This document shows, piece by piece, positions 12,417 through 34,306 of a stretch of DNA of 64,000 bases. Made by a program: the position numbers and the translations under genes. The number at the start of each line of letters is the position of its first letter. Positions within the stretch are counted from its first letter, which is position 1. Origin of the DNA: Sipunculus nudus. Its lineage: Eukaryota > Annelida > Sipuncula > Golfingiida > Sipunculidae. The stretch spans positions 37,588,176 through 37,652,175 of the forward strand of contig CM049311.1 of assembly GCA_026874595.1 (NCBI GenBank), written 5' to 3'. A model generated the notes under the pieces. That model ran no database searches and was not told where the DNA came from. It saw only the letters and a list, made by a program, of their open reading frames with translations.

Positions 12417-13405
12417 TGTAGGCACTAGGGCTGTATCAATATACCAATATATCGAAACATATCGGTGCGCAAAATCAATACGGTTACCGATACGCTTGGC
12501 ATGCTGTATTGTCGCATCGATAAAACACAATAAAATACAACGCTCACTTAAACTGTAATATGTCCTATTTACAAAACCTAAGCTACTTTTGTTTCTTATG
12601 TTTACGTTTAAGGGTTAAATAAGTTCGCATGTCGTATGATCGACTATAGGTGAGGGATGTATGTACACTTGTCTGTGCTTCCATGATAAGCCGGCGCGTG
12701 TGAGTGATGAAAGACGAATATTGCGAACAGTCCGCGTTAGTGGTGAAAACGATGCTCATTTTATATATTTCTACCTTCAAAATGTTTGTTGCTTGTTTTT
12801 TACATTTTATGTAGTAGGACATGTGTTTCCCTTAATAATCGATTATTCTATCACTGATTGTTTTAAATTGAGCGAAGAAATCTCAAGGTCCATATATAGG
12901 CCTATATAGGAATATTCTGACATATAGTTAGACAACAGGTGAACTATAGTTTCATCCCCATGTGTCCACCTGTTTTTTGCGAGAAAATTTTTCATTTTGT
13001 GTCATAAATATAAATAATTGATAAAATAGGGTACAATATCAATGAACCTTATTATTACATTAAGAATAAAAACTTTACCTTGCGTGAAATTTTCGTATAC
13101 GATTTAATTTCAAAATATGAGAATCAGTCTATTCCTTTGCGACAGTTTCCATGCAGCCAAACCCATACAAAGGTCAAGGACGATTGGCTGGGAAAGTCCA
13201 TTATTTGAAGTAGGGGAACAGGTCTAAGTTATAATACTTGAGGTTTAAGTTGTTTTGTGGCTGTGCTGAATGCAATTTTTACCTAATCCTACTATATATT
13301 GTATTAAAATAAATTTATAAAAAGGATTAAGATGATATGTTAAGGAAATTAAGAGGTGCTTTCGTTTTGGCGGGGCTTTTTCATTGATACATAAGTGCCC
13401 AACCT

Positions 13406-14156
13406 TCAACGGCAAAACTCGCAACGCCACTTCATTGGAGACAGCAGCGAGGATGTGGCTTGCTGAAGGTCATAGCTGAAGTAAAAGTTTGTGGTTTTTA
13501 TTTGGTAATATATATATATATAAACAATTAAAAATTCAATAATAATAGAATATAAAAAAATAAAATATGAATTTAATATGAAATCATTTTAATTTGTTAT
13601 ACCAAGTTAAACCTTTTTTATATGTAAATGCGAGGTTGTGTAAACAAAATAATGTAAAACACTCGCGTACTACTGCACAAGCGTGCTACATTGTTTATAG
13701 ACGGTGATTATGTGCGCAAGGACATTATAAAACAGTGTGATGGGGATTACAAATATAAAGGGGTTTTTCCATGTGCGCCTTTATGCTTGAAAATCGTTAA
13801 TATATGAATTTGTAACTGGGGTGTTTCCATGTGTGCGTAAGCATGTGTGTATGTGTGTATATATGCCACAAAAGAGATTTTCACGCAAAAGGTCTGCCTG
13901 AACTCAGGGATTTAGGGTAAAATGACGTTACTTCACCATATTCTTCTTGGAGGCCTGCTCCATCAATTTAATTAATATATTAGCCTGCCAGTTCACTAAT
14001 ATATGGGGACATGGAAACACACCTTAATAAGTATAATTTAAGTTAATACCTATCTAGGCATGTTTTGTGATACCAAGTATCACAAGTATCACAGCCCAGC
14101 CAATCCTCGTCAACGCCATCATGTGACGTACAATATCTGCAGGCAGTGGTGTCTGG
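13406..14156 (-). pseudogene. PHD finger exons 9-10 of copy A
   Basis: Exon 9 (14050-14156) reads ACRYCTSHDGVDEDWLGC then DTCDTWYHKTCLDR. Exon 10 (13406-13475) ends KWRCEFCR and a stop. Joined at AG/C (phase 2) the cysteines and histidine follow the C4HC3 order: C-x2-C, C-x2-C, H-x2-C, C-x2-C. The exon 9 acceptor reads CTATATAG and its donor GTATTA; the exon 10 acceptor is ACTTTTACTTCAG. PHD fingers usually bind histone H3 tails, so this may target insertion or regulate the element; that is inference. Confidence 0.7.
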
Positions 14157-15499
14157 CTATATAATAATAATAATAACAACAACAAAAATGATAATAATAA
14201 TATATATATATGTGTTAAATAATTATATTATAGACACTTAAATTTGACACCCACTGCTTTTGTGGGTACATGTGTATTAAATATTTCCTGTGTTTTATCA
14301 ATATATATTATATAAATTTTGGACTATAAGGCAAATTATTTTGGGAATCTTATGTGTGTTTATAGTTTCAGAAAAGAAAAATTCATTATTAAGAAATAAT
14401 TCTATTTACATAAAAAGTTGTTTAATGATAATTAGGAAATGTTTTGAAAATTGTATGAAAACATAAAAATATACATTGAATAAATATGATAAAAAAATAT
14501 GTATGCCTCTTCCCTAATAATTGTCACATCGTCAGGTGCCTCTTCATCTGTTTCTTCATCGTCCTCTTGAGTGAATATTATGAGTTCGTGATGATTACAG
14601 ACATCGAGGACCCTGTCCTTTTCCCAATAGTGGGCCTCCACTTTTAGAACGTGTTCCACTTATCTGGGCCACTCGTTTCCTGTTAAGTGTGCGAAACCAT
14701 GTAAAATACTTTCATATCTTTCATAATTGAAATATATATATATTACTAATATAAATGGGGAAATGTCATTTTTTATATTAAGAAATGCATTTAACAGAAA
14801 ATAATGATTATAAATATACGAATGAGAAATTAACACAATTAATGTAAAAATATATATTGTTTAAATGGACACGTGCATATGAACTGATGTTGAAATGATA
14901 ATAATATCATTGATGATATTATCATGATAATAATAAATATGTATTAATGAAATACTATTATTATAATTTTTATTGATGTCAATGGACCACGTTCATTTCA
15001 TTGCATTCAAGTTGTAGGAAGAAACTTGATCCCGGTTATTAGGCGAGTGCGTCGTCTGTTATTGAATAGCTGAAAAAAAAAGAAGTGGACAGTTTTATTA
15101 ATCATGACAAATTTTATGTTTATTTTTTTTTCATGTTGAGTTATTGTATAGGTGAAACGTAAAAAACAATTAAAAATACAAAATTATACAAGACCAACAA
15201 AATTTCAAGAAAAAATGAATATATAAATATATAAAAATATTGAATAATTATACAATGATAGAAACGGGTTTAACAAGAAACACCCTTTAAAAGTGTGATC
15301 AAGTAGTAAATCACCGTTTGTGACTTTGTTTTTAGCTTCTGCAAAAAGCTCTTGTACGGTTTCCATCTTTCCTGTGGTGTTATGGGCGGACAAGTACCCC
15401 ATAGCTCAATGGGATTAAGGTTGGCATGGTACGGCGGTAACCTTAGTACCTGCATAATCGTATTGAATAAATGAACATGTATCTATATATCAGTGTTCT

Positions 15500-15849
15500 C
15501 CACTAGAAATTCTGATAAGGTGGTAGCAGGCCCGTAGGCTGGGGGGGTTCGGTGGGTTCGGACGAACCCCCCCCCGCTGAGCATCTGAGTTCCACCTGAC
15601 GAATACAGACATGCTATAATCTCGGAAAATTATACACAACTTTATGTTTAACCATTTTTGTCGTCCGGTTCCATGCATATCCTCACAGGGAGAGACCATA
15701 TTTCTGTATAAATATTGTTTATAGCGCCGATTAGCGGCCTCGATCTTTTAGCTTTATTTAGCTCTGCCTGGGATGTAGATTGCAAGTACAGTTCAAAATG
15801 TTTAATTTCACCTCTGAAACAAGCTTTAAATAACCCGTTCACTGCTTGC
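15500..15849. other. Unassigned ORF-bearing part of copy A intron 6
   Basis: A minus-strand frame (15648-15914) reads QAVNGLFKACFRGEIKHFEL and LYLQSTSQAELNKAKRSR, not recognised. It begins inside the neighbouring 49-bp repeat, so its N-terminus is repeat-derived. A C-rich tract lies at about 15569-15577 beside GGGGGGTTCGG. Confidence 0.3.
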
Positions 15850-16487
15850 TTCTGATTATAGTCAAGAACTGGATGTTTGTTGCCGTGTGAGAGGGGACTT
15901 CTGATTATAGTCAAGAACTGGATGTTTGTTGCCGTGTGAGAGGGGACTTCTGATTATAGTCAAGAACTGGATGTTTGTTGCCGTGTGAGAGGGGACTTCT
16001 GATTATAGTCAAGAACTGGATGTTTGTTGCCGTGTGAGAGGGGACTTCTGATTATAGTCAAGAACTGGATGTTTGTTGCCGTGTGAGAGGGGACTTCTGA
16101 TTATAGTCAAGAACTGGATGTTTGTTGCCGTGTGAGAGGGGACTTCTGATTATAGTCAAGAACTGGATGTTTGTTGCCGTGTGAGAGGGGACTTCTGATT
16201 ATAGTCAAGAACTGGATGTTTGTTGCCGTGTGAGAGGGGACTTCTGATTATAGTCAAGAACTGGATGTTTGTTGCCGTGTGAGAGGGGACTTCTGATTAT
16301 AGTCAAGAACTGGATGTTTGTTGCCGTGTGAGAGGGGACTTCTGATTATAGTCAAGAACTGGATGTTTGTTGCCGTGTGAGAGGGGACTTCTGATTATAG
16401 TCAAGAACTGGATGTTTGTTGCCGTGTGAGAGGGGACTTCTGATTATAGTCAAGAACTGGATGTTTGTTGCCGTGTGAGATGGGATA
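15850..16487. repeat. 49-bp tandem repeat, about 13 near-identical units
   Basis: The unit begins TTCTGATTATAGTCAAGAAC, continues TGGATGTTTGTTGCCGTGTG and ends AGAGGGGAC. Copies look identical until the last, which changes to GAGATGGGATAAAG. Such homogeneity points to very recent expansion or to collapse or expansion in assembly. It lies in intron 6 of the copy A transposase gene. Confidence 0.95.
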
Positions 16488-16499
16488 AAGAGAAAATTG

Positions 16500-18322
16500 T
16501 TGATTGTCCCGTCTCATGCAAAGAGGGCAGTAGCACCCTCTTGTTTCCTGGCCAAAGGATGTAACTAAAACCACTTTGTCAATATAGCACAGGGGACATA
16601 CGTGTCAAGAGTCCAAACCAAACCTGATTCCATAAGAATATTAAATAAAAGAAAAAATACAAACAAAAAGTTAAAATATATCATTTAGAGATTTATAAAT
16701 GAGCTTATGGAACTTTTCGATTTGTTGGTGTTGCAAATTAAAAGGAGGGCCTTGCATATTACTTCTTTAGTTCAGAAGATATATATGGCGATGATCCACT
16801 GTATATAGTCGTCCTATCAGCAGTTTGTCTGCCCGTTAGATAAGAACGATTTTACATCATTGGATTACATTTTTACATCACCTATGGATTTGAAATTTTA
16901 CACACAGTACGATGTACAGAAGTTCTACCAAACCGGAAACTAGGTCACTGTGCTTTGTTTTTTCTAAAATTAAACTAAACCAGTTTGCACTCAAACCTAT
17001 AATACCAATTCAAGACTGCCTTATATAAAAAATGTTTAGCTTGTATGTGAGGAAAATTATGTCAAGATTGAGTAATTAAAAAAATTAGGGACTGGATCAT
17101 ATGTTTAGTCGAGAATATTTTTACTAAATTATTTTGTTAACCACTTAAGCTGGAATTCGGTTCATCCAGAAAATAAATATATAGTTGATTTAGATGTAAG
17201 TATATACACCGGAGATAAGGTCAGAAATTCAATGTATTTTTATAGTAATCAACAAATGTAAAATCACTACCATGCATGAATTTCACCCTATACTTTGACA
17301 ATCGCATATTGTTTCTTGTAATCACTGGTGATTTAATTTTCAAATATACCATGAATACATGGAATTAAGTATTGGTTCTGAAATTCTAATGCAGTTACCC
17401 AAAGAAAATTGGTCAGGTATGGGAGTTTTCAGGGGGGTAATACTATATAATTTATGAGTAATCTAGATCAGGGAACAGGCCATCTCCACAGTGTACTGGA
17501 GGGCAAGCTGGCGATTTGGTATAAATATATGGCGAAGTGAAGCACACCTGCTGTGTGCGCGTGTGCCCCTGCCTGTAAGGACTGATGAATGACATAATTA
17601 TCATTTAATATATTTAATATTAACATGGATTTCATTCACAAAGGCTCTTTAAGTTACTTTGATCGTTTATTTTGTCAGTTTTAGGCTATACACCCCCTAA
17701 ATTGTTCAGTCTACACATTTTGTTTTTATTCGGAACTCGCAGAAATGCCCCGGGATCTTAATTGATCCCCAAAGTTCTAGCTCCGGCCCAGTTATGTCCT
17801 ATATACTGCTTCATTTGTCAAAGAATTTGAATATAATTCTAACATTTTCAGCATCTAACTGCCTCGCCTGCTGGTCCTTTTTTTTTAATTTATGCAAATT
17901 TCAAGTATAGCTAGAAACACCAAACACCGCCCGGTTAATTTCTTTCCATGAATATTAATGTACAAGTTATCTGCATCGAATGATATAAATTTCAAGCAAC
18001 CTCTTTTAATTGTCAGTTAACGTGATAATCATTCGGATGCACAGCTACCGGAGAATATCAGATGACTGAGGTGTGAGTTTGACATTGAATTTAATTATTT
18101 TCTTTTTTTCAAATCTGAAATCAAATGGATGCCAATGCACTTTTTGTTTAGTGTACACGTATATACAGCCTCCTTATGACCATGCATACTTGTGCTGTAG
18201 CAGAAGCTTGCGAAACACTTTGGATGGGACGTTCTGAGTAACGTTACACACGGCGAGAAAAAGGACAATCCGCTAATAATAGCTTATTTGGATTGTTTTT
18301 ATTTCGTTTAAAGAAAACATCG

Positions 18323-18324
<2 letters not shown>
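16500..18324. other. Remainder of copy A intron 6
   Basis: No supported ORF, repeat array or element end seen. Confidence 0.4.

Positions 18325-18387
<63 letters not shown>
18325..18387. repeat. (TA)n microsatellite
   Basis: About 31 TA units in intron 6 of copy A. Further TA tracts lie near 19417-19460, 19671-19700, 19750-19797 and 20541-20588. Confidence 0.95.
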
Positions 18388-18389
<2 letters not shown>

Positions 18390-19422
18390 GTTCCATCAAC
18401 AGTGAAAACGAACCCTCCCACTCAGCAGTCAGCCTACGGGCCTGGGTAGTGTGCGTGGTCGAACCGGGCCTGGTGCCTACATGTTGTGCATCATTCTTTT
18501 TTTTTTTTTTTTTTTATTGTCTGATAAAACAAATTAATCTACATGGCTTTTTTTATGCATGGAAGAACATTAAGAGCAAGAGGAAGGGCATGTAATGTGT
18601 TTGTATGAGTTGTCATTAGAACAACTAATAAATTGCAAATATAGACATTTATTCTAACATTTCGGTGAGAAATGATAGGGTGGCGGTGCGCAAGCCTATA
18701 TTGTCTATATTGGAGAACTCTGTATATATAATTAATACAGTTACAAATACAAATATCGGGACAATAAGCATAAAATAGCACATACACATGCATGTGACAT
18801 TTTATATTTTTACCGTGTGGCCGCTCTCCTCGGCAATCGTATCTATGATAAACCGCTTCGAATGGATTCTCTTCGCCAACTCTTTGAGTTCTACGTGAAG
18901 CATGTCCTCGGTGAATGGAACATCTGCATGGAGGACATGTGTTACATATTATCAGAATTTAAAAAATGAAAATACTCACTTGCAATTAATTACTTTACAT
19001 AAATCATATCGTAAACTCATGTCGTTATAATTTGGTAAAAACTCGTACCTTATATATTAATATAAATTAATATAACATTTATTACATACAATTGAAATAT
19101 TTATAAACATGAAGGACCACATATGCAATGGAATTTCTCTTATACAAGTATATATATATATCTATATATATATATATATATCACGCGCTATCGATCAATC
19201 TGTCCCATCGGCCGATGGGTTTTGGCGCAGCGGTGTATTGACCGATGTCCCGCAGGGCAAACCGATGGGCCAAACCAATCGGGCAATATTTAATTTCTCA
19301 TTTGAATAAAAAATGTATACTATATATCATTATTTTTTATTTTGTGTATTAAAACAGACAATAGAATATATTTCAGTGATTATGTAAAACTTCTTACATT
19401 AGAATAACTGATAACTAAAGGG

Positions 19423-19464
<42 letters not shown>

Positions 19465-19668
19465 GTGTGTGTGATTGTGTGTAAACGATAAATGCTCTAC
19501 TAATATATATAGACAAATTAACCTCTCTGTCGCAGCCATTGCTGAACATCTGATTTGCGTGTAGGGACACGACTATCCTCTGTTACCACTGAGTGGTATG
19601 ACGCGTTGTCCATAACGAACACTGAGTTGGGGGTCACATTTGGGATAAGTTGTTCCTGTATTATATGT

Positions 19669-19699
<31 letters not shown>

Positions 19700-19746
19700 G
19701 GTTATAGCTAATATATACGGACAGGCACTGACCCGGTATACCGATA

Positions 19747-19800
<54 letters not shown>

Positions 19801-20508
19801 CCTTAATGACCTGAAAAGTGACAATTTTAATATTTAAAAACAATACTGCTTTATATAAGAAATATATAAATTAAATTAATATGTTCATGTAAGGAAGCTG
19901 TTCCTAAAGAAAGAAGCATTCAACATAAGTTGCACATATTAATTTACTAAAAACATTAAATTAATAATAGTTAAGATATTAACATGTGGCATCAATATTT
20001 TTTTCAGTTTATAGAAATAACAAATAACATTAATTAAAAACAAACTTAATTTTTTATATACATATATAAATGCATGCATGCAAACAAACTCTTGAAAGCA
20101 AAGTAGGAATATTAATAACATGTGCATGCATGTATACATATTTCATTTATAATTTGATTATTATAAGTATTTATACAATTGCTCTTAAAAGTAATTTTTA
20201 AATATAACAAATTTTCCCTACTGTGAACCATTTCACAAATGTATCCCCGTTTATCTCTTCATGGTAATCCGATGAAGAGCTGGATCGGAAAACCAGCTCA
20301 GCTCCAGGCACAAACCCATCCTCATTCCCGGCATCTATTATTATTAGCCGGTTGCCACGCCCATTGCCACTGAACTTTCTCCCTTGACCTTCACTATATA
20401 GGATATAATGGTAATAAAAATATGGTGAAGTAGTTTTCAACATAATAAATCTTATAAAGAAAAGCCTGGGGGTTGAAATCAATATATCATAATAATGACT
20501 CTCTGTAT

Positions 20509-20590
<82 letters not shown>

Positions 20591-21170
20591 TTTTAATAAT
20601 TATATTTTTATGATTATTTGTTTTCATGATACATACTTATAGTTCCAATTTATTTTGATATATGATTCTAGCACACTTAAATTTACTTTTATTTAAAGTA
20701 TAAGAGACAGATATATGGTCAAGCGTCTAATTAATTCCATTTTTTTCTGTTTCTTGATAAATGTTTAGGCTTTTTAAGCCAACTTGCCTGTCATACCACT
20801 CCTTGGATGGACAGTGACCACTGTTCACCCACGTCTCATCGAGGAATATAATACACCGGCCCTGTTGGCGGTAATGACGTAGCTGACGCAAATATTTTAC
20901 ACGCAACCTTATAATCATTTGCCGCTCCATTATGTGGTAGTCAGTTCCTCTTTTCTGACAATATTATATAAATACACACTAACACATGGTATATATGTAC
21001 ACACTGTACACATGCTTGTTTGATTTTATCAAGTGTACCATAAATAAATATATGGTTAGGTTTGTAAATAAAAAAACCAATCCATTGTGCTCCCCCATAC
21101 ATTTGCAATAAATCTCTATGAATATTATATTGCAATATCAGACAATATGAATTATATGTCATGCATTACT

Positions 21171-21173
<3 letters not shown>

Positions 21174-21226
<53 letters not shown>
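21174..21226. repeat. (CT)n microsatellite
   Basis: About 26 CT units in intron 2 of the copy A transposase gene. A shorter CT run joined to TA repeats lies at about 20512-20588. Confidence 0.95.
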
Positions 21227-21229
<3 letters not shown>

Positions 21230-22433
21230 GACATTAATGCAATATGAGAATATAAACATGATGCATAGTTATTGGGATATATTTTTTTAAATAATACATT
21301 CAAAGGATAAAAATGATAATTATTATATAAATATTGTAAAAGTGATTGTATATTTATTATATATAAGTAGATAAAATTCGCAATATACAACATATGTAAA
21401 TATTCTGGATCCGCCCCTTTATATATTGTTATATATAAAACATGTTACAATAAGTGTATAACGTAATGAATTTCGTACATATATAAATTAAAAATACTAA
21501 TCACAACACATGTGATATATAATAGGCCTATAATAAACAACCTATAAAATATATACATATATATTTTTATTAATTTCTTTCCTCAAACATTCATCACAAA
21601 CACGATCTATATTTCGCATCTATCATAACATCTTTATTCAGTAACATATTATTTGTAACTTCAGCACTGTAAAGTTAATAACATTTGATTACCTTAAACA
21701 CAAATCCATTTTTCTTTAACAACCAGTAGAGTCAAATGCGGTTAACACGCAGGTCGTCCTTAGCACACGTTCGAGTGTAGCCAGGCTCAGCACTTCCCCG
21801 GCCTCCCAACAGGCATAGATGCGGCGTATATGATGTATACATACATGCAAGTATAACCTGCTTCTAATTTTTGTCAATGATATTTTACTCCCTTTCTCAA
21901 ACACGTACATGTGCATTATTACAGTTTTTAGATAAAATATTTAATATATTAAATCATAATATAGATATATATAATATCTCTTAATCCCTTTAAATTAAAA
22001 TATAATACATTATCATTATTTTTTTCGTATTTTATTTTATATATTTAAATATATTCTTCTGACTTAATATATTGCTACATTTTATTTTTTATTTATTTAG
22101 AATAAAAACAGGAGTGTACATTTATTTACCGTATGACATCCTCGTCAAATCCATCAATGACGCTTGTCGTCGTTCCATCATCTGATGGGGCGTCTTCTTC
22201 TGAGATTGATTTACCAAAAAGGTACCTGTGCAGGGTGTTCTCGGAAATTCCAAGCATTGATGACACACGGTCATTAACCCTGGCGAGGGACACTAAGAGT
22301 CTCCCACGCTTTGCCTCCTGAAGGCAATAGTTGTATATTTTCCTCACTGTCTGAGCCATGATGACCCTGTTGACAGGTAAGAAAAGCAAGACCTGACGCC
22401 CCCACTCAAGGTGTTGTTTGGCATAGTCGAACT

Positions 22434-22455
22434 CACGTGACCTCTGTGACGTCAT
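22434..22455 (-). promoter_or_regulatory. Conserved E-box plus CRE upstream of copy A transposase
   Basis: CACGTG, then ACCTCTG, then TGACGTCA, lies about 75 bp upstream of the likely start codon (22359). Exactly the same 22-bp block is found at 32114-32135 upstream of the copy B start, although the surrounding sequence has diverged. CACGTG is an E-box and TGACGTCA a CREB/ATF site. Promoter function is inferred from conservation. Confidence 0.5.
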
Positions 22456-22702
22456 GACTCCCCCCCCCCCTCCAATTTGTAAACATGGCGGTTGCAGGAT
22501 GGATAGGAACGCTAGAGCTACTTACAAACATGAGTCGACAATGTTGTTAAGTAACAATATTTTATTGCACCAATAACTCATTCATCACATATTAGGTTGT
22601 CTCTCATAACTGACAAAGGCTGCATCATTTATTGTTAATAAGAAATCTGCGAAACTCTAAACGAAAAAAACAGGTGGACAGCCGATGGTGAAACGGACTA
22701 TA

Positions 22703-23284
22703 GTCCGTCCCAGTACCCGTGTCCGCATGTTTTTTTCGCGATAATTATTTTTAAAATATTCTTTAAAAATGCCCTTTGGCCTGAAGCAGATATACAGATA
22801 TTCCGCCGATATTGTGTAAAGTTGTTATATATCATGAAAAACGTATTTACTTTGCGACTCTTTTGCGTTATTTTTGCTGAAATACCGTGAATGGCGTCTT
22901 CCCGGCACTGCTAGACAGTACATTCCTCCATGTTACACTTTCCATGTCTATGGCTGCGTTTGGTGTTTGTTAGACAACAGTGACGTCACAAAGACGTCAC
23001 AGTGATCGGTCGCACGTCATCATCAATTGACTGACGTCATAAGTTTGACTGGCTTGTTTATTATCAGTACTCAGCTAAGGAATAAGTCGTAAACGCTGTA
23101 GCTTGTTTTTTCATATTTTGGATTATTTGTCTCATATAAAATCAAGGCAAGGTAAGGTATTACTTTTTACGCAGGTTGTCGGCGGAATAGCTCCTGCAAC
23201 CTTTGGACAAGAAAGGTTTACACTGCTTTACTTGTATAAAAAATTATTCCGGAAAAACATGCGGACACGGGTACTGGGACGGAC
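22703..23284. mobile_element. ITm-related MITE, copy 1
   Basis: 582 bp, flanked by TA. It has perfect inverted termini GTCCGTCCCAGTACCCGTGT followed by CCGCATGTTTTT. The first and last parts resemble the termini of elements A and B (GTCCGT..CA, then GTCC-C-TGTTTTTTTCG), so it is probably mobilised by the same transposase family. There are no coding regions; several TGACGTCA-like motifs (about 22981-23040) lie inside. It sits exactly between the right end of A and the left end of B. Confidence 0.75.
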
Positions 23285-23500
23285 TATATACTCCGTTCCA
23301 CGACCTATGGTCCACCCGTATTTTGCGAGAGAAAAAAAAGTGAAGTTAGGTATCAGAACAAATCTTACAAAAAGGAGTTGAATAAACATTCGCCTAATTT
23401 TCCATCATAAATGTAAAACTGTACCTTGTAAGTTGTTTTCACAATCAATTTTTTTCTAAAATGTGAGAACAAGTCTACAAGTTTACGACAGCTTCTCCAA

Positions 23501-24417
23501 CACCCTTCCGCCAGAGGTCGTTTCTACTCAAAACGAATCTCTTCTGTTTGGGCACTGTGGGAAGGACCGAACTACTTGACAAGTGTAGCCTGGTACCAAA
23601 TTCTCTTAACACTGAATTAACGGACGGACGGACTAACCATAACTACAGCACATATATACCGGGTTACTTATCAGCTAATAGTCATGCAGACGTCAGCTGA
23701 GCTAAAATTGTGGGTTCCCTTAACTTGCCGAAGCCCGAAGTTCAGCCCCGTATATATTATGCACCTATATACTACATCCCAGTACCCGTGTCAACATGTT
23801 TTCTGGGATAATTTTTCATATGTGTGAAGCAGTGTAAACCTTTCTTGTCCAAAGTTTGCAGGAGCTATTCCGCCGACTGCCTGCGTAAAAAGTAATGCCT
23901 TACCTTGTTTTGATTTTGTATGAGACAATCTAAAATATGACAAAACAGATCACAGCGTTTACGAATTATTCCTTGTCTGAGAACTGATAATAAAAAAAGC
24001 CAGTCAAACTTATGACGTCAGTCAATTGAAGATGACGCGCGACCGAACATTGTGACGTCTCTGTGACGTCACTGTTCTCTAACGAACACAAAACGCAGCC
24101 ATAGACACAGAAGTGTACCATGGAGGAATGTACTGTCCAGCAGTGCCGATAAGACGCCAACCACGGTATTTCAGCATAAATAAAGCAAAAGAGTCGCAAA
24201 GTAAATTCGTTTAACATGACATAGAACTACTTTAAACAAAATTCAACGCATTTTGACGGACTACATTGGCCCCTTTTCACCACTTGTGTATTTCCGCTGT
24301 CAGTGTACATGTTGATGCCGCGCGGTGCATTATTGGAGTCAGATTTTGACTCCAACAATCCCTAGACAGCAGTGTCGTACTCTCGAGAGTCCGAGTCTGC
24401 GCAGTGTGCTTCTCCAA
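23501..24417. mobile_element. Insert in copy B left end
   Basis: GCTTCTCCAA occurs at both edges (23491-23500 and 24408-24417). Copy C is uninterrupted at the equivalent place (about 32620), so about 0.9 kb was inserted with a 9-10-bp duplication. No terminal inverted repeats are obvious. MITE copy 2 lies within it. The class is unknown; a 9-10-bp duplication would suit a Mutator-like element. Confidence 0.4.
23772..24261. mobile_element. ITm-related MITE, copy 2 (inverted)
   Basis: This is the reverse complement of the MITE at 22703-23284, diverged and shortened to about 490 bp. It has TA flanks (23770-23771 and 24262-24263), CCCAGTACCCGTGT at one end and TTTTGACGGAC at the other. Shared landmarks include GAGTCGCAAAGTAAAT, GCAGGAGCTATTCCGCCGAC and the TGACGTCA cluster. 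Confidence 0.65.
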
Positions 24418-25303
24418 GTGGTGGTTATAAACAAGGGGTCAAGGACGTTGCCCTGGATTAGATGGAATAGTCTATTTTACCACAGGGGGTTAACGTGTGT
24501 TTTATGTTGTTGCTGTAATGGGGTGACAACTTGTTCACTGTGTTGAATGTACATTAGAGTATGTACAAGGTCTAAATCAAAATTTTAATGTGAATTTAAT
24601 TAAAAGAGATATAAATATATAGTTGTTGATGAGAGAGCAGATCATAAATATGACGAATCTTTCATTTTTGACGGGCCATTTTTACTGTAACAAGTGTATG
24701 TGCCCAACCTTCCTCCTTTTTCCGGGCTTAGGACCGGCAGGATAACCAAGAGATCAGGTTTTCCAGGCGGAGTTAAAAAAAAAACCCAAAAAATAACGGT
24801 GAAGAGAATATTATAAAAAAAGCCAACTTGAATACAAGTCATCTAACAGACGTGACTTGAGGTGCTCCGTGCAGTGATCCCTCTGTAATAATAACAAACA
24901 TACAATTTATTTATAAATATATGCCTACAATTAAATACCACAAGTATACTAATATTAATAATATTAAAAAATTATTACTCACTAATAATACAGTACTACT
25001 AATAAAACAATAATATAGGACACACGTACACACACACATATATATTAAGATAATATATATAATCTACAAGTTTCCTGAAATAAGTTTAGAAGAAAACGAT
25101 AATATTTTAATGTAGTTAATGTATATAAGCTTATATTCCCCATATATTTTAATTTTCTATATAAATAAATGATATAGGCCTAAACTTTGTATATTTATAT
25201 TCGAATATGTGTTGTAAATTTATATTTTAGCCTTAATTAAAGTATAAGACATAGAAAAAGTATTTTAATTTTTAAAGTTATGTAAGTTTAAAAACGTGTA
25301 TCA

Positions 25304-25760
25304 TCACCAGTGTATGAGGGCATCCCCAGAACCACCTCTTTGAATATCCTGTATGCGACACAATTCGCAACGCCACTCCAAGGCTTCTGTTATGGAAGCC
25401 ATGGCATCCCTGAGGTCATTGCTGAAACATTAGTGGTTTTAAGATTAAATATATCAAGTAAATAATAATAATATAAACATAAATAACATATACAATAATA
25501 AAAAATTAAATAAATATAATATTTAATAAAAAAAAAAGAAAAAAATATTATTTTAAAAAAGTTTTCATAAAAAAATTTAAAACATGGCCGCTGTCATTCA
25601 AAATAATGTTTGACAGCAGTATGAATTTAATGCATGTTTTAATTTATTTTAACCTTTCAAGACATGTTTGGTGGAACCACATGTCGCATTTGTCGCATCC
25701 AACCCACGTATCTTCTTCCCCTTCCGGTGATCTGCAGATTGTGCAGCCGAATGGTTCAGG
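25304..25760 (-). CDS. PHD finger exons 9-10 of copy B transposase
   Basis: Exon 9 (25654-25760) reads PEPFGCTICRSPEGEEDTW then VGCDKCDMWFHQTCLER. Exon 10 (25304-25421) reads SNDLRDAMASITEALEWRCE then LCRIQDIQRGGSGDALIHW and a stop. Together they give a full C4HC3 PHD finger (CTIC, CDKC, HxxC, CELC) with the usual Trp before the last cysteine pair. The exon 9 acceptor TTTTTTCTCCTTTGTAG is strong. Exon 9 starts in phase 0, matching a GAAGAA/GTAAAT donor near the end of exon 8 that would bypass the exon 8 stop. Both PHD exons are intact here. Confidence 0.72.
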
Positions 25761-26429
25761 CTACAAAGGAGAAAAAAGCATATTTACTTTATACATATAG
25801 GTTGATTTAGATATTCTCTGACTTATGTGAACGTCAAGTCAGCTGAACATTTGACGACAGTGTTGCCCCCTGGTGGATAAATTAGAGCGGTGGCGGCCTT
25901 TCAACCTGATGGCGCACAGTTCACGTCGTCGCCATATTGACACGCAGAATTTGCCGTATTTCATTAAGATACAGGAACCAATGGTAAGTTATTTTAATCT
26001 TTATGTTACCCTGTACCCTTAGAATAATACATTGTACGGTGACATATTTATAACAAACTTTAATTACGACATGTGATCAAAAGAATTTGGTTTTCCTAAT
26101 GCAATGAAAAAAATTATTTGCGCATGCGCATTACTGCAGTTCATGGAATACCATATAGGCCTAGTCATTGGCTAGAGTAACAAGGAATAAAGATTGGAGA
26201 AGGATAAAATTGACATCTCAGGCGCAGATCGAGTTATATTTAACGTTCAGTAACGTAAAGGGTATGAGTAAGGTGAGCGCCAAAATAATTGTTAGGGGCT
26301 GTGAGATTTCTGTAAAATAAAAAAAAATTATGGGTTTTTATTAAATACAGATAGAATAGTGCAAGAATGTTCCTTTTAAAGCAATTCACCATTCATAGTT
26401 AAAAATTGGCCAAAAAAATTATTGGTGCT

Positions 26430-26478
26430 TGATAGGGGGGGGGGGCTATGCGTCCACCCTAACCCCCCCCCCCCCCCC
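26430..26478. repeat. Paired poly-G and poly-C tracts
   Basis: A G-run at about 26437-26445 and a C-run of about 16 at 26463-26478 lie about 20 bp apart. They could form a hairpin. They lie between exons 8 and 9 of copy B. Confidence 0.7.
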
Positions 26479-28532
26479 TTCCAGTTGTGCACATGCATTT
26501 TAAATGCATTTAATCTTATTTTATGTATTTTCAGATGAATGGGATTTATTTTAAAAAACAATTTGGTGTGCATTTCGCGAAACGGCCCTTTAATGGAGTA
26601 CACACCTAGTGATATAAATGTAATTCACTCAGACCATGGGACGGTAGGCCTATATATATGCGTCCCCATGGAGACAATGACAGAAGAGACAGAAAGAGGA
26701 ATGCCAGTGTGTCACCAGACACCAGTATCACCAGACCCGTGGAAAATCAATTTACTTCTTCAGAAGCAGGTTCTTCCGCTGGATCATCTTCCTCCTCCTC
26801 CTCATCTTCACCAGTATCCACCACAAGGTGAAATGTTGGTGACACATCCAGAACTTTATCCCTGTGCCAGAACTGATCCCCCACTTTCACAGTGTGATCC
26901 ACGAATTTGTTCCACAAGTTTTCTGTTCAGTTTGTTGATGCAATATATTTAAAACATATAAATTATTTGTTACAGTTTAAAATTTCAAATCATCAGATAT
27001 GATATATATTTCTATGGTATATTTTTAATATAGGCGTAAGTATCTTTAAGTAATTGTAACTGATATACAAAAAGCATAGTGGGAAACAAAGAATATTAAT
27101 CATAACCCTATTCATGAATATATGTTAAATTATGGTATAGTTTTATTTTCATTTTGTTAAACATGTAGTAATTGTAATGTGTTGACTTGAGGCATGTCAC
27201 CAGGCAGATGATTTTGTCGATGACACTCTGTTGAAAGCAGAAACTGAAGGGCATTTTCAAGGTTTGTTTTGTAAAGCTGTAAAATATAGTTAATGTGTAA
27301 ATGTACATATTTTATAAAGAACTAGAACTATCATTCATGAGATAATATTAGTAACAGGATTAAATCAAACACAATTAGACATAATGAAATAAGAATGCAA
27401 AAGGTTCAACGTCCATAAAGCTAATGAAACATTTAAGGATAAAAACTGATATTATTTTAAACCTTAGAAGGTTAAACCTCGGGAACAAGTTATTTACCAT
27501 TTGCTACTTTGTAGCGGGCCTCCATAAAAATTTGCTGGACATCCAGTAACTTGGCTGTCGTATTGTTTGCCGCCACATGCCCTTTCATGCTGGCCCAACA
27601 TAATTCTATTGGGTTTAGCATTGAATGGTAGGGCGGGAGTCTTAGCACCTATATAATAGTATTGGAACAATTAACACAACCCTAGAATATTTAATAATAT
27701 GTTTACATATAATGGGGGAGGGGGACATAAAGTGATTCAAGAAATGCTATATATTTGAATGTAAATCATTAACTCGTATATGTCAGTATTTGTTAAGTGC
27801 ATGCATTTATAGGGCTGAAATCTTGTAGACGTATGTCAGAAATTTTTTTTACAGATTTATCTCGTACACGAGATTGGTTGTGCTACCTCATATATTTTTA
27901 TTATTTTTTTAGACATTCAGGTGTTGTTTGTGGAAAGCTCGTATGCCACAATTTTTAGGGCTGTCATTTCATACCTCGCTTTATCCATGCTGATGTTATA
28001 CGGCTGATGTACGTCGTTTGTTCACTGCTCATTTTGTATGTAATTCATAATGTACGTTATTCCATACGCCGATACACACAGGAGTGCTATAAATAGTTAT
28101 ATAATTTGCCACACGGAGGCAGGACCTACATTTAGCGTTACAAGAGTGAGAGAACGTTTGATTTCTCTGTCAGAGGCCACCATTAGGTCTTAACCATTTC
28201 ATGAACTGGGCCAGTCAAATTTTTACCGTGTGACCACTTTCTTCCGCTAGTTGATCGGCCATGTATTTTCTCTGGTGATGACGCTTCATCAGCTCCACCA
28301 GGAGCATATCTTCACTGAAGTTTGTCTGAAAATAAAATCCATTAACGAGAACGTGCATTGACACGGGGCACCTGGCACATTTCAGCTTTCAGCAATTTAG
28401 ACTAATAAATCTTGAAGGGGGGGGGGGGATCCTCTTCCCACGGTGTGGTTTTTTTTAGATCAGCTGACTAAGTCGTCTGTGCTATATCGATCACCCTTTG
28501 TCCGTCGTCCGTCCGACCAGTCGTCTGTCCGT

Positions 28533-29000
28533 GAACAAGGCACAAATCGTAACTGCTGGACCTGGAATCTTCTTACTTGACATCCAGGGAGGTCCATGAA
28601 AAATCCTCTTGATAACATGGAATTAGGTCTCTGTTACCCATATTATTCGAGCTATGGGGCTCCGAAGTAATCCCCCCCCCCTCCCCGAATAATGGAAATT
28701 TGATACTAAAGCTCAAGTGTCTGAGCAACTAATGCATTGATCACCATGATTCTTTGCATTGATATTTGTGATGGAATGTTTTATCGGTTTATGCAGTTTG
28801 GTGATGCCCCACTGTATTTTTCAATTTTTACAATTTTTTTCTCTTTTTTTAGACCTCTTAAGATATTTTCATCTGTTAACAGGGCACAAATCATAATCAC
28901 TGGATCTAGAATCTTCTAAGCTGACATCCTGGGAGATCTGTAAAAAATCTGCTTGTAAAATGAAATTGGGTTTCTGTTACCCATACCATCTGAGCTATGC
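28533..29000. repeat. Direct repeat pair in copy B intron 5
   Basis: 28533-28650 and 28874-29000 share AAC..GGCACAAATC, CTGGA.CT.GAATCTTCT, TGACATCC.GGGAG and TTCTGTTACCCATA in the same order. They are old and diverged. The left unit is preceded by a GTCCGTCGTCCGTCCG tract. Confidence 0.55.
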
Positions 29001-31116
29001 TTAAGTTGAATGTGGATACCTAGTCAGCTGAGCGTCATGACCCCTGTTTCACCTGTTTATATTACACATGCTATAAATTGACATTTCTGTTAGTAGTTTT
29101 CTTGTAATATATGATATAATGAAAAAGATAATAGTTGGGTTTTATTTACTAGGCTAAAGGCTGAATGATAGTTATTTAAATTGAACTTTATTGTCAATAT
29201 TTTTTCGTAAGAATGATCATAACCGGTACTGGAAGTAAAATAATAACCTCTTTCGCGCAACCATTCTTGCACGTCGGCTTTTCTGGTTGGTACACGACTG
29301 TACGTCAGACGTAAGCACTGTGTGGTAAGCCGCATTGTCCAATACAATTACCGAATGATGCGGTATGTTTGGTAGAAGCTGTTCCTGTGGTATACAGTAT
29401 ATTAATTAGACACATTAAATATAAATACTTTAACCCAGCTTACAAAAGCATCACATTTGTATATAATCATTTATGCAGTATTTACTTTTCATGTGTTTTA
29501 TCACAATTATTTGTTACAAATTAGTCATATTTTTAAACAATTTGAAAACACCATATACCAGAATACTTAGTGCGCAGAAGCGTGTCAGATTTATTTTGTT
29601 CTCCTTTTCCTAATTTTTTTTATCTAAATTACAACATACGTATTTTTATTTAAAATATTGTTTTATACATTCTCTCTTTTTTAACTCTAGAACATAAGAT
29701 CATGGTACAGGATGTTCACACATATGTAAACATAATTAGATGATTATGGAATGTTATGGCCCGTACTTTGAACCATTGTAGGAATCTCTCCCCATTCATT
29801 TCCTCGTGGTAGTCCCCAGAGGAATTTGAGTGGAATATCAACGAGGCCCCAGCGATAAATCCGTTGACTGTGCCAGCGTCAACTACAATGAGGCGGTTGC
29901 CTCGGCCGTGGCCACTGAATTTTCGGCCTCTGCCTTCTCTAAATTTGATACCACATGTTATTGAATGCCATATGTCAATTAACTATTTTACAAATTACAA
30001 ATAATATTTATTCAAACGTGTATAAAAATTAATGATATCATTGTACATCTTCATATTTCTACAAACAGTAGCTTTATATATATATAATATATAGCTGTAT
30101 CAAATATTGCGATTCCTTTCACCAGATCAGTGTAACATTTGCCTGCAAAAGTACCCACGTCTACAAGGAACTAGAGCATCAATCAATCGTTAGACAATTA
30201 TAATATAGGCAGTCGGCAAACGACTATGTGTATCCGCAGAATCACGGGATATGGAAGTTATCCGGGCGTGAAAACAATATAAATGTAATTGTGTATTTGC
30301 TCTAGTCATTTATCTTTAATTTTTAGCCAAACCCAAAATACATTGCAACCCTTTTTTTGGCGTCCCAGTTTAGAAGATATTTATGTTCCATATAGCCCTA
30401 TTGAAAACAACTTTGCTCAACCCGGCTCAAGACTGAGTTCCCTAACCTGTCAAGCCACTCTTTTGATGGGCAGTGACCGCTATTTACCCACGTCTCGTCG
30501 GTGTAGACAATGGGACGGCCTTCCTCCCGGTACCGCCTTAGCTGCCTCAGGCACCTGGCCCTCCAGCATACTATGTCGAGCCGCTCCATTATGTTCCAGT
30601 CTGCTCCCCGTTTCTGATAACATCATTGTATCGCATACGGATAAGCATGTTCTTAGGAAATAGAAAACTTCGACCATTAAGGAGTAATAATTAAATGTAT
30701 TTCGACATAATACAAATTTATTCTAACTTTTTTTTGTCTGAGTGTAGAGTCTTACAAGGTATATTATAGCATTTCAAATTCTGCCATGAACTTAAAATAA
30801 TTATTCAAGCCCTATTTCACCATAGTTTTTAAGCTGTAAGTATACTATTCTCCTAGTATTTCCCACATGCATAAATGTTTTTTTGTTTGCCTAATTGTAA
30901 CATACACCTCTTCTTTAGCCTATATGTGTATATACAATATATATGTCATAGCTATTAGGAAGCACGCAGGACAAATATTTATTTTTTACCTTTTCAACCT
31001 TTGACATTTTTTTATATATATCATTTGACTATTTCAGTTCTTTCAGTTAAACGTATTTCATCTTTTAATGTCTATATAACTTGGCAGGTTGAAGGTTGCT
31101 CATGTTTTTTTCTAGT

Positions 31117-31120
<4 letters not shown>

Positions 31121-31177
<57 letters not shown>
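31121..31177. repeat. (TA)n microsatellite
   Basis: Directly downstream (minus sense) of copy B exon 2. A second array at 31364-31421 lies upstream of the same exon and a third is at about 31743-31797. Confidence 0.95.
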
Positions 31178-31180
<3 letters not shown>

Positions 31181-31357
31181 TACCTTAAATACAAAACCAT
31201 TCTTCTTAAGGAGCCGATACAACGTAGTGCGATGCACTATCATCGCGTCCCTCTCTAGGAGGACCCTGACCAGCGACCCCAGGGATACCACCTCTCCGGC
31301 CTCCCAACATGTGTAGATGCGGCGTCTGCATTGTTATATCATTCATTTGTGGACATG

Positions 31358-31363
<6 letters not shown>

Positions 31364-31421
<58 letters not shown>
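31364..31421. repeat. (TA)n microsatellite
   Basis: About 29 TA units in intron 1 of the copy B transposase gene. Confidence 0.95.
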
Positions 31422-31422
<1 letters not shown>

Positions 31423-31739
31423 TTGCAAAGTTTTAAACAAAAGTTATATCACATCTTTAATATCCATTATTTTTCCTCCTCATTCTCAAACATTAACATA
31501 CGTCAAGGCAGATTTCAACATTGTTGTATTGTAATAATTACATTATAATTGGCTATTTTTTTTTATTATATTAATTCAGTCATTGCTTTTTTTAGATAAT
31601 TCATATAAATTTATAATTTAAAATTTATATATGCGTAGTTATGTTTAATAATAATGATATAATTACCTTCAATTAAATAAACTTATAAAAATAACGTAAT
31701 GTCTTCTTATGTGTTCAACAGTTATTCAATGTTCAATTC

Positions 31740-31780
<41 letters not shown>

Positions 31781-32113
31781 ATATATATATATATTCACAT
31801 ATATTTACCTTATTACATCCTCATCAAAAGAGTCAATGCTGCTGTTTACACTTCCAGCGTCCACGGATGCAGAGCCTTGAACCCTCGCATCGCCCCAAAC
31901 ATAGCGGTGCAATGTCTTTTAGAAATGCCAAGCATTGAGCAAACCCGCTCGCTTACTCGGCTCAATGCTATATATAGTTTGCCTCGCCTAGCCTCTTCCA
32001 GGCAGAAAGTATATGCCTTTCTAACTAACGCTGCCATAACTTGCTACCTTCTAGGCACCATGAACCGTATGACCTGACGCCCCCACCAAAGTTGTCGTTG
32101 GAACAGTCGAACC

Positions 32114-32135
32114 CACGTGACCTCTGTGACGTCAT
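32114..32135 (-). promoter_or_regulatory. Conserved E-box plus CRE upstream of copy B transposase
   Basis: The same 22-bp block as at 22434-22455 (CACGTG, ACCTCTG, TGACGTCA, T), 77 bp upstream of the copy B start codon. Flanking GGGGGCGTCAGGTC is also shared between the copies. Confidence 0.5.
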
Positions 32136-32414
32136 ATACCCCTCCCACTGTTTTTAAATATGGCGATTCCCGCACAACAATACTTACCAGTGCTGCATTA
32201 CAAAGAACTCAACAACGTCGTAAGGTATTAATATTTTATTTCATCAACAAATTAATACACATATATTAGGCGGTCTCTCATACTTATTGGATTTCACAAT
32301 ATTAATGCCTAGAACACAATACATTACAAACTAAATGAAAAAAAAACGGGTGGACCATGGGTCGTGGAACGGAGTATATAGTTGTCAAAATCTTGGGGAA
32401 AATCAAATACTGTA

Positions 32415-33093
32415 CTCCGTTCCACGACCTATGGTCCACCCGTTTTTTGCGAAAGAAAAAAAAAGTGAAGTTAGATATCAAAAGAAATCTAACAAAATGG
32501 GGTAGAAGAAACATCCGCCTAATTTTCCATTATACATATAAAACTGTACCTTGCATGTTGTTTTCACAATCGATTTTTTTCTGAAATGTGAGAATCAGTC
32601 TACAAACTTTGCGACAGTTTCTCCAAGAGGCGCTTGTAAACAAGGGGTCAAGGACGTTGCCCTGGATTGGCTGGAAGTGGCCATTTTATCAGAAGGGGTG
32701 AAATCGTTTATGTGGTTCCTGTGCTGTGGTGACACGTATCGTGTTGTTTGTTTACCGTTTTGATCGTAAATTAGAATATTTACACAAGTATAAATCCAAT
32801 TAATAATGCCAATTTAATTAGAAGAGGTATAAATGTATGATTGATGAGAGTACAGAGAGCAGATGATAAATAAAGGCCTAATGAATGTTTGACATTGTAT
32901 GGGCTATATGTTCACTGGAACAAGCATATAGGCTAATAATAGTAATATATATTGGCCCAACCTTCCTCCGGGCTGAGGGACGTTTGTGAGAAGTTGCTCC
33001 TGTTTTGGCCCATAAAATATTTTAAATCATATTTGTAATCATATGTTTATTAACATTAATTTTGTAGATAGAGACATTTAATCAGACATTTAA

Positions 33094-33145
<52 letters not shown>

Positions 33146-33427
33146 TTGTATCACATTTTTTTTCAAATCAGATGGATCTATAAATTAATAAAATAAGTAT
33201 AATCAGTTATACAATTGATTGAACATCATGGACATCACCTGGACCCACTTTATGTATGTTTTACCATTCAATTCTTTTTGTATTCATCCTATATCAAATG
33301 TACTTATTATATATTTTGATTTTGTTATATTATTCATTATATATATATATTCATAATAAATATATAATATATTATCATTTTATTATATTATTCATTATAT
33401 ATTTTAAATGTGTCATAAATATATATA

Positions 33428-33468
<41 letters not shown>

Positions 33469-34306
33469 TATGGTTTGTTCTTCTGAATGAAAAAAAAATA
33501 CAGAGTCATACAAGGGCGTATGAACAGTAAGTCAAACAGCCGCGGGCATACAATCCGGCATTTCGAAATAATATATTATCACTGCATTATGTATAAGCGT
33601 CCGGGTCCCTGAATAATTTTGAAAAACTTCTGAAATTCACATAATCTCAATAGTCACCACTCACCAATTGTCTGATTATGAAATGGCATGTGTTAGCACT
33701 GAAACTGGTGCACACGGACAATTTCCCGCAATATATCTCATGAATGAAACTTTAAGTGCGCGGAACTTCGTGTATAGTATATATATACTACGAGAAAGGG
33801 TAGTCAGTCAATTTCTCATAAAATGAAAACGATAAAAGTATACCCCTTATAAGACTAACAAAAATAATAAAACGTCCATGTCTTTCTCACTGTCTTTCAG
33901 GATAGCGACGATCGAGAATACGTAATTTCACCAATTAATGCTTCTTGGAGATATGCATTTATAGAAAAACAATAAGTAAATAAAATACATATATACTCTA
34001 TTTCCATCGCATATAGGCCTATGCGGGAAGATGCCATGCAGAAATTTAACAATGACCCGGGCGGATGGAAGAATTAAGATCGATTAACCTCCCGCTATGG
34101 TTGCCGCATGACAAGGTTCAGTGGTGCTGCTTTAAAAATGACTTAACAGCGTTGTTAGGTAACATTCTTTTATTTCATCAATAATTTTCCGGAAATAAAT
34201 TAGGCGGTCTCTCACATCTCTTTGTTCTTGCAACACTGAAGCCTGAAATTTAGTTTGAAACAAAATAATTGGAAAAACCATGTGGACCATGGTTCGTGGA
34301 ACGGAG
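32415..34306 (-). mobile_element. Internally deleted ITm transposon, copy C
   Basis: 1.9 kb with TA flanks. It has the same termini as copy B (CTCCGTTCCACGACCTATGG left, its inverse at 34270-34306). The left 550 bp follow the copy B left end. The right 250 bp follow the 5' end of the gene side (TTAGGCGGTCTCTCA). Near 32985 the left end joins a short piece of exon 5: on the minus strand CAG then GAGCAACTTCTCACAAACGT (EQLLTN), matching EQLLPN in copy B. It has no coding capacity and contains TA tracts at about 33097-33142 and 33420-33465. Confidence 0.7.

Follow-up and report, generated by a model that had tools for sequence, protein, structure and literature searches.

Two transposable elements in the genome of Sipunculus nudus are most probably decayed copies of a repeated IS630-Tc1-mariner (ITm) family, close to Sailor, in which a transposase gene with nine introns is fused to a PHD finger. 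The elements lie in a stretch of 64,000 nucleotides (NCBI GenBank assembly GCA_026874595.1, contig CM049311.1, positions 37,588,176 to 37,652,175 of the forward strand), the whole of which is called the window below. The evidence is best explained by a Sailor-like lineage, provisionally considered unreported, in which the transposase has a reader of histone tails fused to it. The family is repeated in the genome, its members have terminal inverted repeats (TIRs), TATA flanks and a common order of exons, and the PHD finger is physically linked to the transposase.

Structure and decay of the two elements

Element 1 (E1) occupies positions 12949..22698 (9,750 bp) and element 2 (E2) positions 23291..32374 (9,084 bp), both on the minus strand, as delimited by the alignment of their TIRs and by their exons. 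E1 is flanked by TATA at 12945-12948 and 22699-22702, and E2 by TATATA at 23285-23290 and 32375-32380. The TIRs of E2 are identical in 40 of 42 aligned columns; those of E1 give a weaker match with a 4-base gap. In both elements the alignable stretch is about 40 bases long. The first-pass annotation of this DNA had proposed two TIR-bounded, TA-flanked elements that carry the same ten-exon gene on the minus strand. Both parts of the proposal hold, as a TIR and TATA are present at both ends of each element, and ten collinear minus-strand exons, separated by nine introns, were recovered from E1 and from E2 in the same order.

In E1, exon 1 (22130..22359) encodes the N-terminal helix-turn-helix-like part, exon 2 (21693..21827) is frameshifted and has lost its acceptor AG, and exon 3 (20788..20954) carries the first catalytic aspartate in a DETW motif. 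Exon 4 (20222..20393) is followed by exon 5 (19523..19655) with the second catalytic aspartate, by exon 6 (18814..18923, 110 nucleotides) and by exon 7 (15315..15449), which contains the catalytic glutamate (NPIEL) and a frameshift after it. Exon 8 (14528..14679, bounds approximate) encodes the acidic C-terminal part and is interrupted by an in-frame stop, and the two halves of the PHD finger are found in exon 9 (14050..14156) and exon 10 (13404..13475). The corresponding exons of E2 are exon 1 (31809..32037, frameshifted), exon 2 (31184..31325), exon 3 with the first aspartate (30447..30613), exon 4 (29767..29938), exon 5 with the second aspartate and a frameshift after it (29248..29384), exon 6 (28227..28325, 99 nucleotides), exon 7 with the glutamate (27498..27648), exon 8 with the acidic C-terminal part (26756..26922), exon 9 with the first half of the finger (25654..25760) and exon 10 with its second half, a tail and the stop (25304..25421). 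Exons 3, 4 and 9, for which equal lengths had been claimed, indeed measure 167, 172 and 107 nucleotides in both elements, when the donor of exon 9 in E1 is placed at AG|GT.

The genes of both elements are broken, E1 by the lost acceptor of exon 2, the frameshifts in exons 2 and 7 and the stop in exon 8, and E2 by the frameshifts in exons 1 and 5. The window thus holds the remains of a family and no active element. The end of the gene is common to several copies: E2 and three copies found elsewhere in the genome, called C17, C11 and C1 after their contigs, resemble each other in the tail and stop of the last exon. The stop is displaced by one residue downstream in L064, and in E1 it comes earlier than in the other copies.

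The protein domains agree with the first-pass annotation, which had described an IS630/Tc1/mariner DDE transposase core with a D-x89-D-x79-E spacing and a complete C4HC3 PHD finger in the last two exons. A query that mixes exons 3-8 of both copies matches Pfam DDE_3 with an E-value of 6.8e-16. The D-x89-D-x79-E spacing was obtained in E1 by a hand count on the exon peptides; in E2 the spacing from the second aspartate to the glutamate is about 76-77, a value made uncertain by the frameshift and by the shorter exon 6 (99 compared with 110 nucleotides). The N-terminal exons (a query of E1 exon 1 and E2 exon 2) give weak helix-turn-helix matches in Pfam, below the cut-off. In each window copy, exons 9 and 10 together cover PF00628 from end to end, with E-values of 4.5e-10 and 4.8e-9 and scores of 39.8 and 36.6 bits, above the curated cut-off of 24. 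The zinc ligands are arranged alike in E1 and E2, as C-x2-C-x12-C-x2-C-x4-H-x2-C-x20-C-x2-C, and the nearest solved chains to the finger include KDM5B, Pygopus 2, BPTF and TAF3.

Linkage of the PHD finger to the transposase

The family was sought across the same 1.43 Gb genome among the best-scoring candidates only, so that the counts given here are lower bounds. The search with transposase exons 3-7 yielded at least 98 matches, which appear as exon-sized pieces at many loci and as continuous stretches at others. The 79 exon-sized rows fall into 41 intron-type clusters, and 48 of the 121 rows that match the PHD finger were used for the linkage count. At 17 of the 41 transposase clusters a PHD match follows downstream within less than 6 kb, in the same orientation; random placement of the 48 would give 0.004 such cases. 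The count was then extended by hand: C6:44398999 has a PHD exon next to a locus already included, C3:85715710 has a transposase exon that precedes the PHD pair at C3:85717286, and other single pieces of the transposase were added. With these, the finger lies downstream on the same strand at 19 of 45 intron-type loci, a total that includes the unclassifiable single-piece locus C10:24274158, compared with 0 of 13 intronless loci read from the same lists (Fisher p 0.005).

Exon 7 is detectable in 19 of the 41 clusters, and a hand count assigns a PHD match to 11 of these and none to 8. Among copies fetched beyond exon 7, PHD exons are present in 6 of 10, and two further copies, retrieved starting at exon 6 or 7, have one PHD exon each, which brings the number to 8 of 12 overall. 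The four copies read that are devoid of the finger are L049, L052, L053 and L054. The first three look truncated because exon 8 is not seen there either, and L054 keeps a decayed exon 8.

Exons 3-5 of 20 loci were placed in a tree, which contains sequences of this genome only, is rooted on the intronless set and has several weakly supported inner nodes. In it, intron-type and intronless copies are separated by a branch of 0.66. Copies that bear the PHD finger occur in both main intron-type branches, which makes it probable that the clade's ancestor already had the finger.

The copies C17, C11 and C1 suggest how the elements behave as units. They diverge from each other by 3.5-4.6% across exons 7-10 and the introns, and the divergence of the exons (4.4% and 3.0%) is similar to that of the introns and untranslated regions (3.6% and 3.7%), as expected of transposon copies that decay without constraint after insertion. 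In the C1 copy, exon 1 and exons 5-10, PHD finger included, are enclosed by TIRs of about 112 bp that are 87% identical to each other; exons 2-4 were not found between these TIRs, and the flanks are TATA and TATG. The C17 copy has the left TIR and all ten exons, with exon 5 matched in two frames, and its downstream flank consists of N. By comparison with C11 and C1, copies of the C17 type are about 6.4 kb long. The C1 repeats around the PHD exons, together with the 19 of 45 linked loci, support the first-pass annotation in its description of an intron-rich ITm-type transposon with a PHD finger at the 3' end of its gene.

It is highly improbable that the PHD exons were captured by chance or are part of a host gene that was hit by insertions of the elements. 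PHD matches are admittedly common in this genome (108 are listed, the best 150 of 1144 candidates having been scored), but those next to the transposase recur with the same strand and a similar spacing at many loci, which are spread over several contigs, a TIR lies downstream of the finger in E1, E2, C1 and C11, and the finger is found in both main intron-type branches. Chance linkage was rejected on the same-strand linkage, the direct reads of copies and the comparison of C17, C11 and C1; the host-gene explanation was rejected on the linkage, the copies read directly and the divergence among the same three copies.

Transposase exons were also sought in nine regions around PHD matches and in one region beside the window, and none was found at an E-value of 0.05; the PHD matches of these transposase-free regions are other PHD genes or elements. 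A donor of the finger was not found among the other PHD matches listed, whose identity in the aligned portion does not exceed about 50%. One scan each of viral contigs and of contigs of prokaryote genomes confirmed no relatives. At C6:44396144-44423083, next to a single transposase locus, exon 9 and exon 10 each have two matches about 14.9 kb from one another, a pattern that would fit a segmental duplication of a PHD-bearing copy. Twelve of the 41 intron-type clusters are gathered within 3.5 Mb at C2:76.4-79.9 Mb.

The window contains further elements that are related to E1 and E2 by their ends. A third element (32415..34306, minus strand) starts a few dozen bases past the end of E2, has TIRs of the E1/E2 kind at both ends and is flanked by TGTA and TATA. 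Coding exons were sought in it and none were found; it is an internally deleted derivative. A short non-autonomous element with related TIRs (22703..23284, strand not assigned) is inserted between E1 and E2 in shared TATA sites, and its TIRs resemble those of the C17/C1 subfamily. Its second copy, inverted and 87% similar, is found at about 23766-24242 within the 3' part of E2. A minisatellite array with a 49-bp unit (15702-16583), the central units of which are 98-100% identical, lies in the E1 intron that separates exon 6 from exon 7.

The PHD finger and the predicted protein

Purifying selection has acted on the PHD finger between subfamilies. In exon 9 the nonsynonymous divergence (dN) between subfamilies is 0.29-0.38 and the synonymous divergence (dS) is beyond estimation. 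The identity of E1 and E2 in this exon is.87,.70 and.27 at the first, second and third codon positions, and an earlier run on slightly longer exons agrees. The amino acids of the finger were thus kept while the synonymous sites became saturated, which indicates that the finger was under selection while the elements moved.

Such selection, like the many introns, would also be expected of a domesticated host gene family that descends from a transposon and is no longer mobile, and domestication has reportedly been suggested for the intron-bearing Tc1-like elements with spliceosomal introns (TLEWI). For the family as a whole this is very unlikely: the copies are scattered and broken, they have TIRs and TATA flanks, their exons and introns diverge alike within a subfamily, and a deleted derivative with common TIRs exists. 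One domesticated copy may be present elsewhere.

The role of a cage tryptophan is described in the available part of PMC10124903. The two tryptophans of the present finger (W19 and W28) are those of the motif W-[VL]-G-C-D-x-C-x-x-W. Seven copies of exon 9 were compared, and six of them, having passed a filter that itself demanded the second tryptophan, keep the zinc ligands and both tryptophans; because of this filter, only the first tryptophan is an independent observation in the six. L058, a copy dropped by the filter, still has both tryptophans. Judged from these residues, the finger would most likely bind the histone H3 tail, and would recognise its K4-methylated form by the tryptophan pair.

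The simplest reading of the gene is that an in-frame splice joins exon 8 to exon 9 and a single protein results. In three subfamilies, namely E1, E2 and the C17/C11/C1 group, exon 9 begins in phase 0 immediately after AG, and in E2 the preceding exon 8 reaches its GT in phase 0. In both E1 and E2 an in-frame stop directly precedes exon 9, and hence reading into the finger from upstream requires splicing. Alternatively, the gene could give rise to two products: a transposase that terminates shortly after exon 8, and a small PHD protein made separately, comparable to RAG1L plus RAG2L. In favour of this, L057 has a methionine codon two codons before the first cysteine of the finger, and the PHD finger of RAG-like transposons is carried by a second protein, as stated in the accessible text of PMC7204232. 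Two products are nevertheless unlikely, since the PHD exons are on the strand of the transposase, exon 9 follows its AG in phase 0 in all three subfamilies, and no methionine codon precedes the finger in exon 9 of E1, E2, C17, C11 or C1, so that a separate PHD protein would need another, unseen first exon.

Several points speak against the preferred interpretation. When exon 8 of E2 is left unspliced, its frame stops three codons past the GT, which also favours two products, as a transposase devoid of the finger and ending there could be made as well. In the C17 group the donor of exon 8 is uncertain, and the frame stays open for at least 30 codons beyond it. Every PHD-bearing copy in which most exons were read is broken or incomplete, and in L055 the finger itself has decayed: it contains stops and lacks the first tryptophan and one cysteine. 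Histone binding is predicted from a motif. Finally, no PHD match lies within 6 kb of the transposase at 26 of the 45 intron-type loci, many of which are fragments. The first-pass annotation had named a lack of PHD exons in most copies as a refutation, and the outcome is mixed: most loci are without a match, and 11 of the 19 clusters with a detectable exon 7 have one. One spliced protein, encoded by a family to which the finger belongs, is still the preferred interpretation.

Elements of the mariner type are usually short and intronless, and are regarded as showing little chromatin preference. From the sequence of the elements it is possible to propose how the S. nudus family may have moved. 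The intact gene, once spliced, would yield a protein composed of an N-terminal helix-turn-helix-like part, a D-D-E core with a long spacer before the glutamate, an acidic tail and the C-terminal PHD finger. The transposase would bind the TIRs of its element and insert it at TATA by a cut-and-paste reaction, which is the standard reading for transposases of the DDE class. The finger would bind the K4-methylated tail of H3 and would then guide the transposase to open chromatin or permit its action there, a function also presumed for the PHD finger of RAG2. Such guidance is conceivable, although slightly less probable than not. The PHD finger of sea-urchin RAG2L binds methylated H3K4, according to the accessible part of PMC7204232. 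If the proposal is correct, chromatin targeting could be tested in one genome by comparing the insertion sites of PHD-bearing copies with those of their PHD-less relatives.

Comparison with known transposons

The classical Tc1/mariner elements, which have a DD34-41 spacing and a TA duplication, differ from the present family with its D-x79-E and TATA. The intron-type transposase is about 40-48% identical to intronless relatives in the same genome. Such relatives include L019-L024, L028, L030, L032 and L035, and no PHD match was found at these ten loci. The relatives comprise at least two families. One is the group of L019 (G000:C5:54286334; intronless, D-x102-D-x82-E), with a length of about 3 kb and copies that are mostly 85-97% identical; the other consists of L024, L030 and L032. 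A search of solved structures for the intronless transposase gave no match up to an E-value of 10.

The first-pass annotation had likened the elements to DD82E Sailor. As described in the available text of PMC8533490, Sailor has a spacing of DD78E-DD111E, TATA duplications, TIRs that usually start with GT or CC, an insert of 12-15 amino acids between the first two aspartates and a length of at most 6.98 kb. The comparison stands with respect to the spacing, as the 79 residues of E1 fall in the Sailor range, and to the TATA duplication, which is present on both sides of E1 and E2. The TIRs start with GT in E1, C17 and C1, and with CT in E2 and the third element. The comparison does not extend to the insert: the first two aspartates are 89 residues apart here and 102 apart in L019, the local DD82E copy, and the alignment with L019 shows a 13-residue gap between them. 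The family is accordingly called Sailor-like and is not considered a member, because this feature is missing. Unlike Sailor, it has nine introns and a PHD finger, and the window copies are 9.1-9.8 kb long. The available part of PMC8533490 has no mention of PHD, exon or zinc, and 'intron' appears there once, in a reference.

Introns in an ITm-type transposase gene are shared with TLEWI. Puzakov is said to have reported TLEWI in molluscs in 2020, in bivalves, with a DD36E spacing and no TIRs. They have 3-5 introns, as given in the available part of PMC10379824, compared with nine introns, DD79E, TIRs and a PHD finger in the present elements. It is plausible from the sequences that the latter may form a new group. 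More tentatively, and at odds somewhat below even, they may represent a family-level ITm lineage in which an H3-reading PHD finger became permanent before the subfamilies split and served in chromatin-sensing targeting, in parallel to RAG2.

No PHD-bearing ITm element is named in the listed titles and beginnings of abstracts of the open-licence papers searched, and a PHD finger fused to a transposase of the ITm type is provisionally considered unreported in that literature. Other DNA transposons with a PHD finger are known from the accessible portions of the respective papers: Rehavkus (PMC6446971), Ginger1-9_HM (PMC2836005) and the RAG-like transposons (PMC7204232). In these, as in the S. nudus elements, the finger is part of a DDE transposase or travels with it, but their transposases belong to superfamilies different from this one. 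If the present interpretation is correct, the family described here would be another independent gain of a PHD finger by a transposase, besides those of Rehavkus, Ginger and the RAG-like elements.

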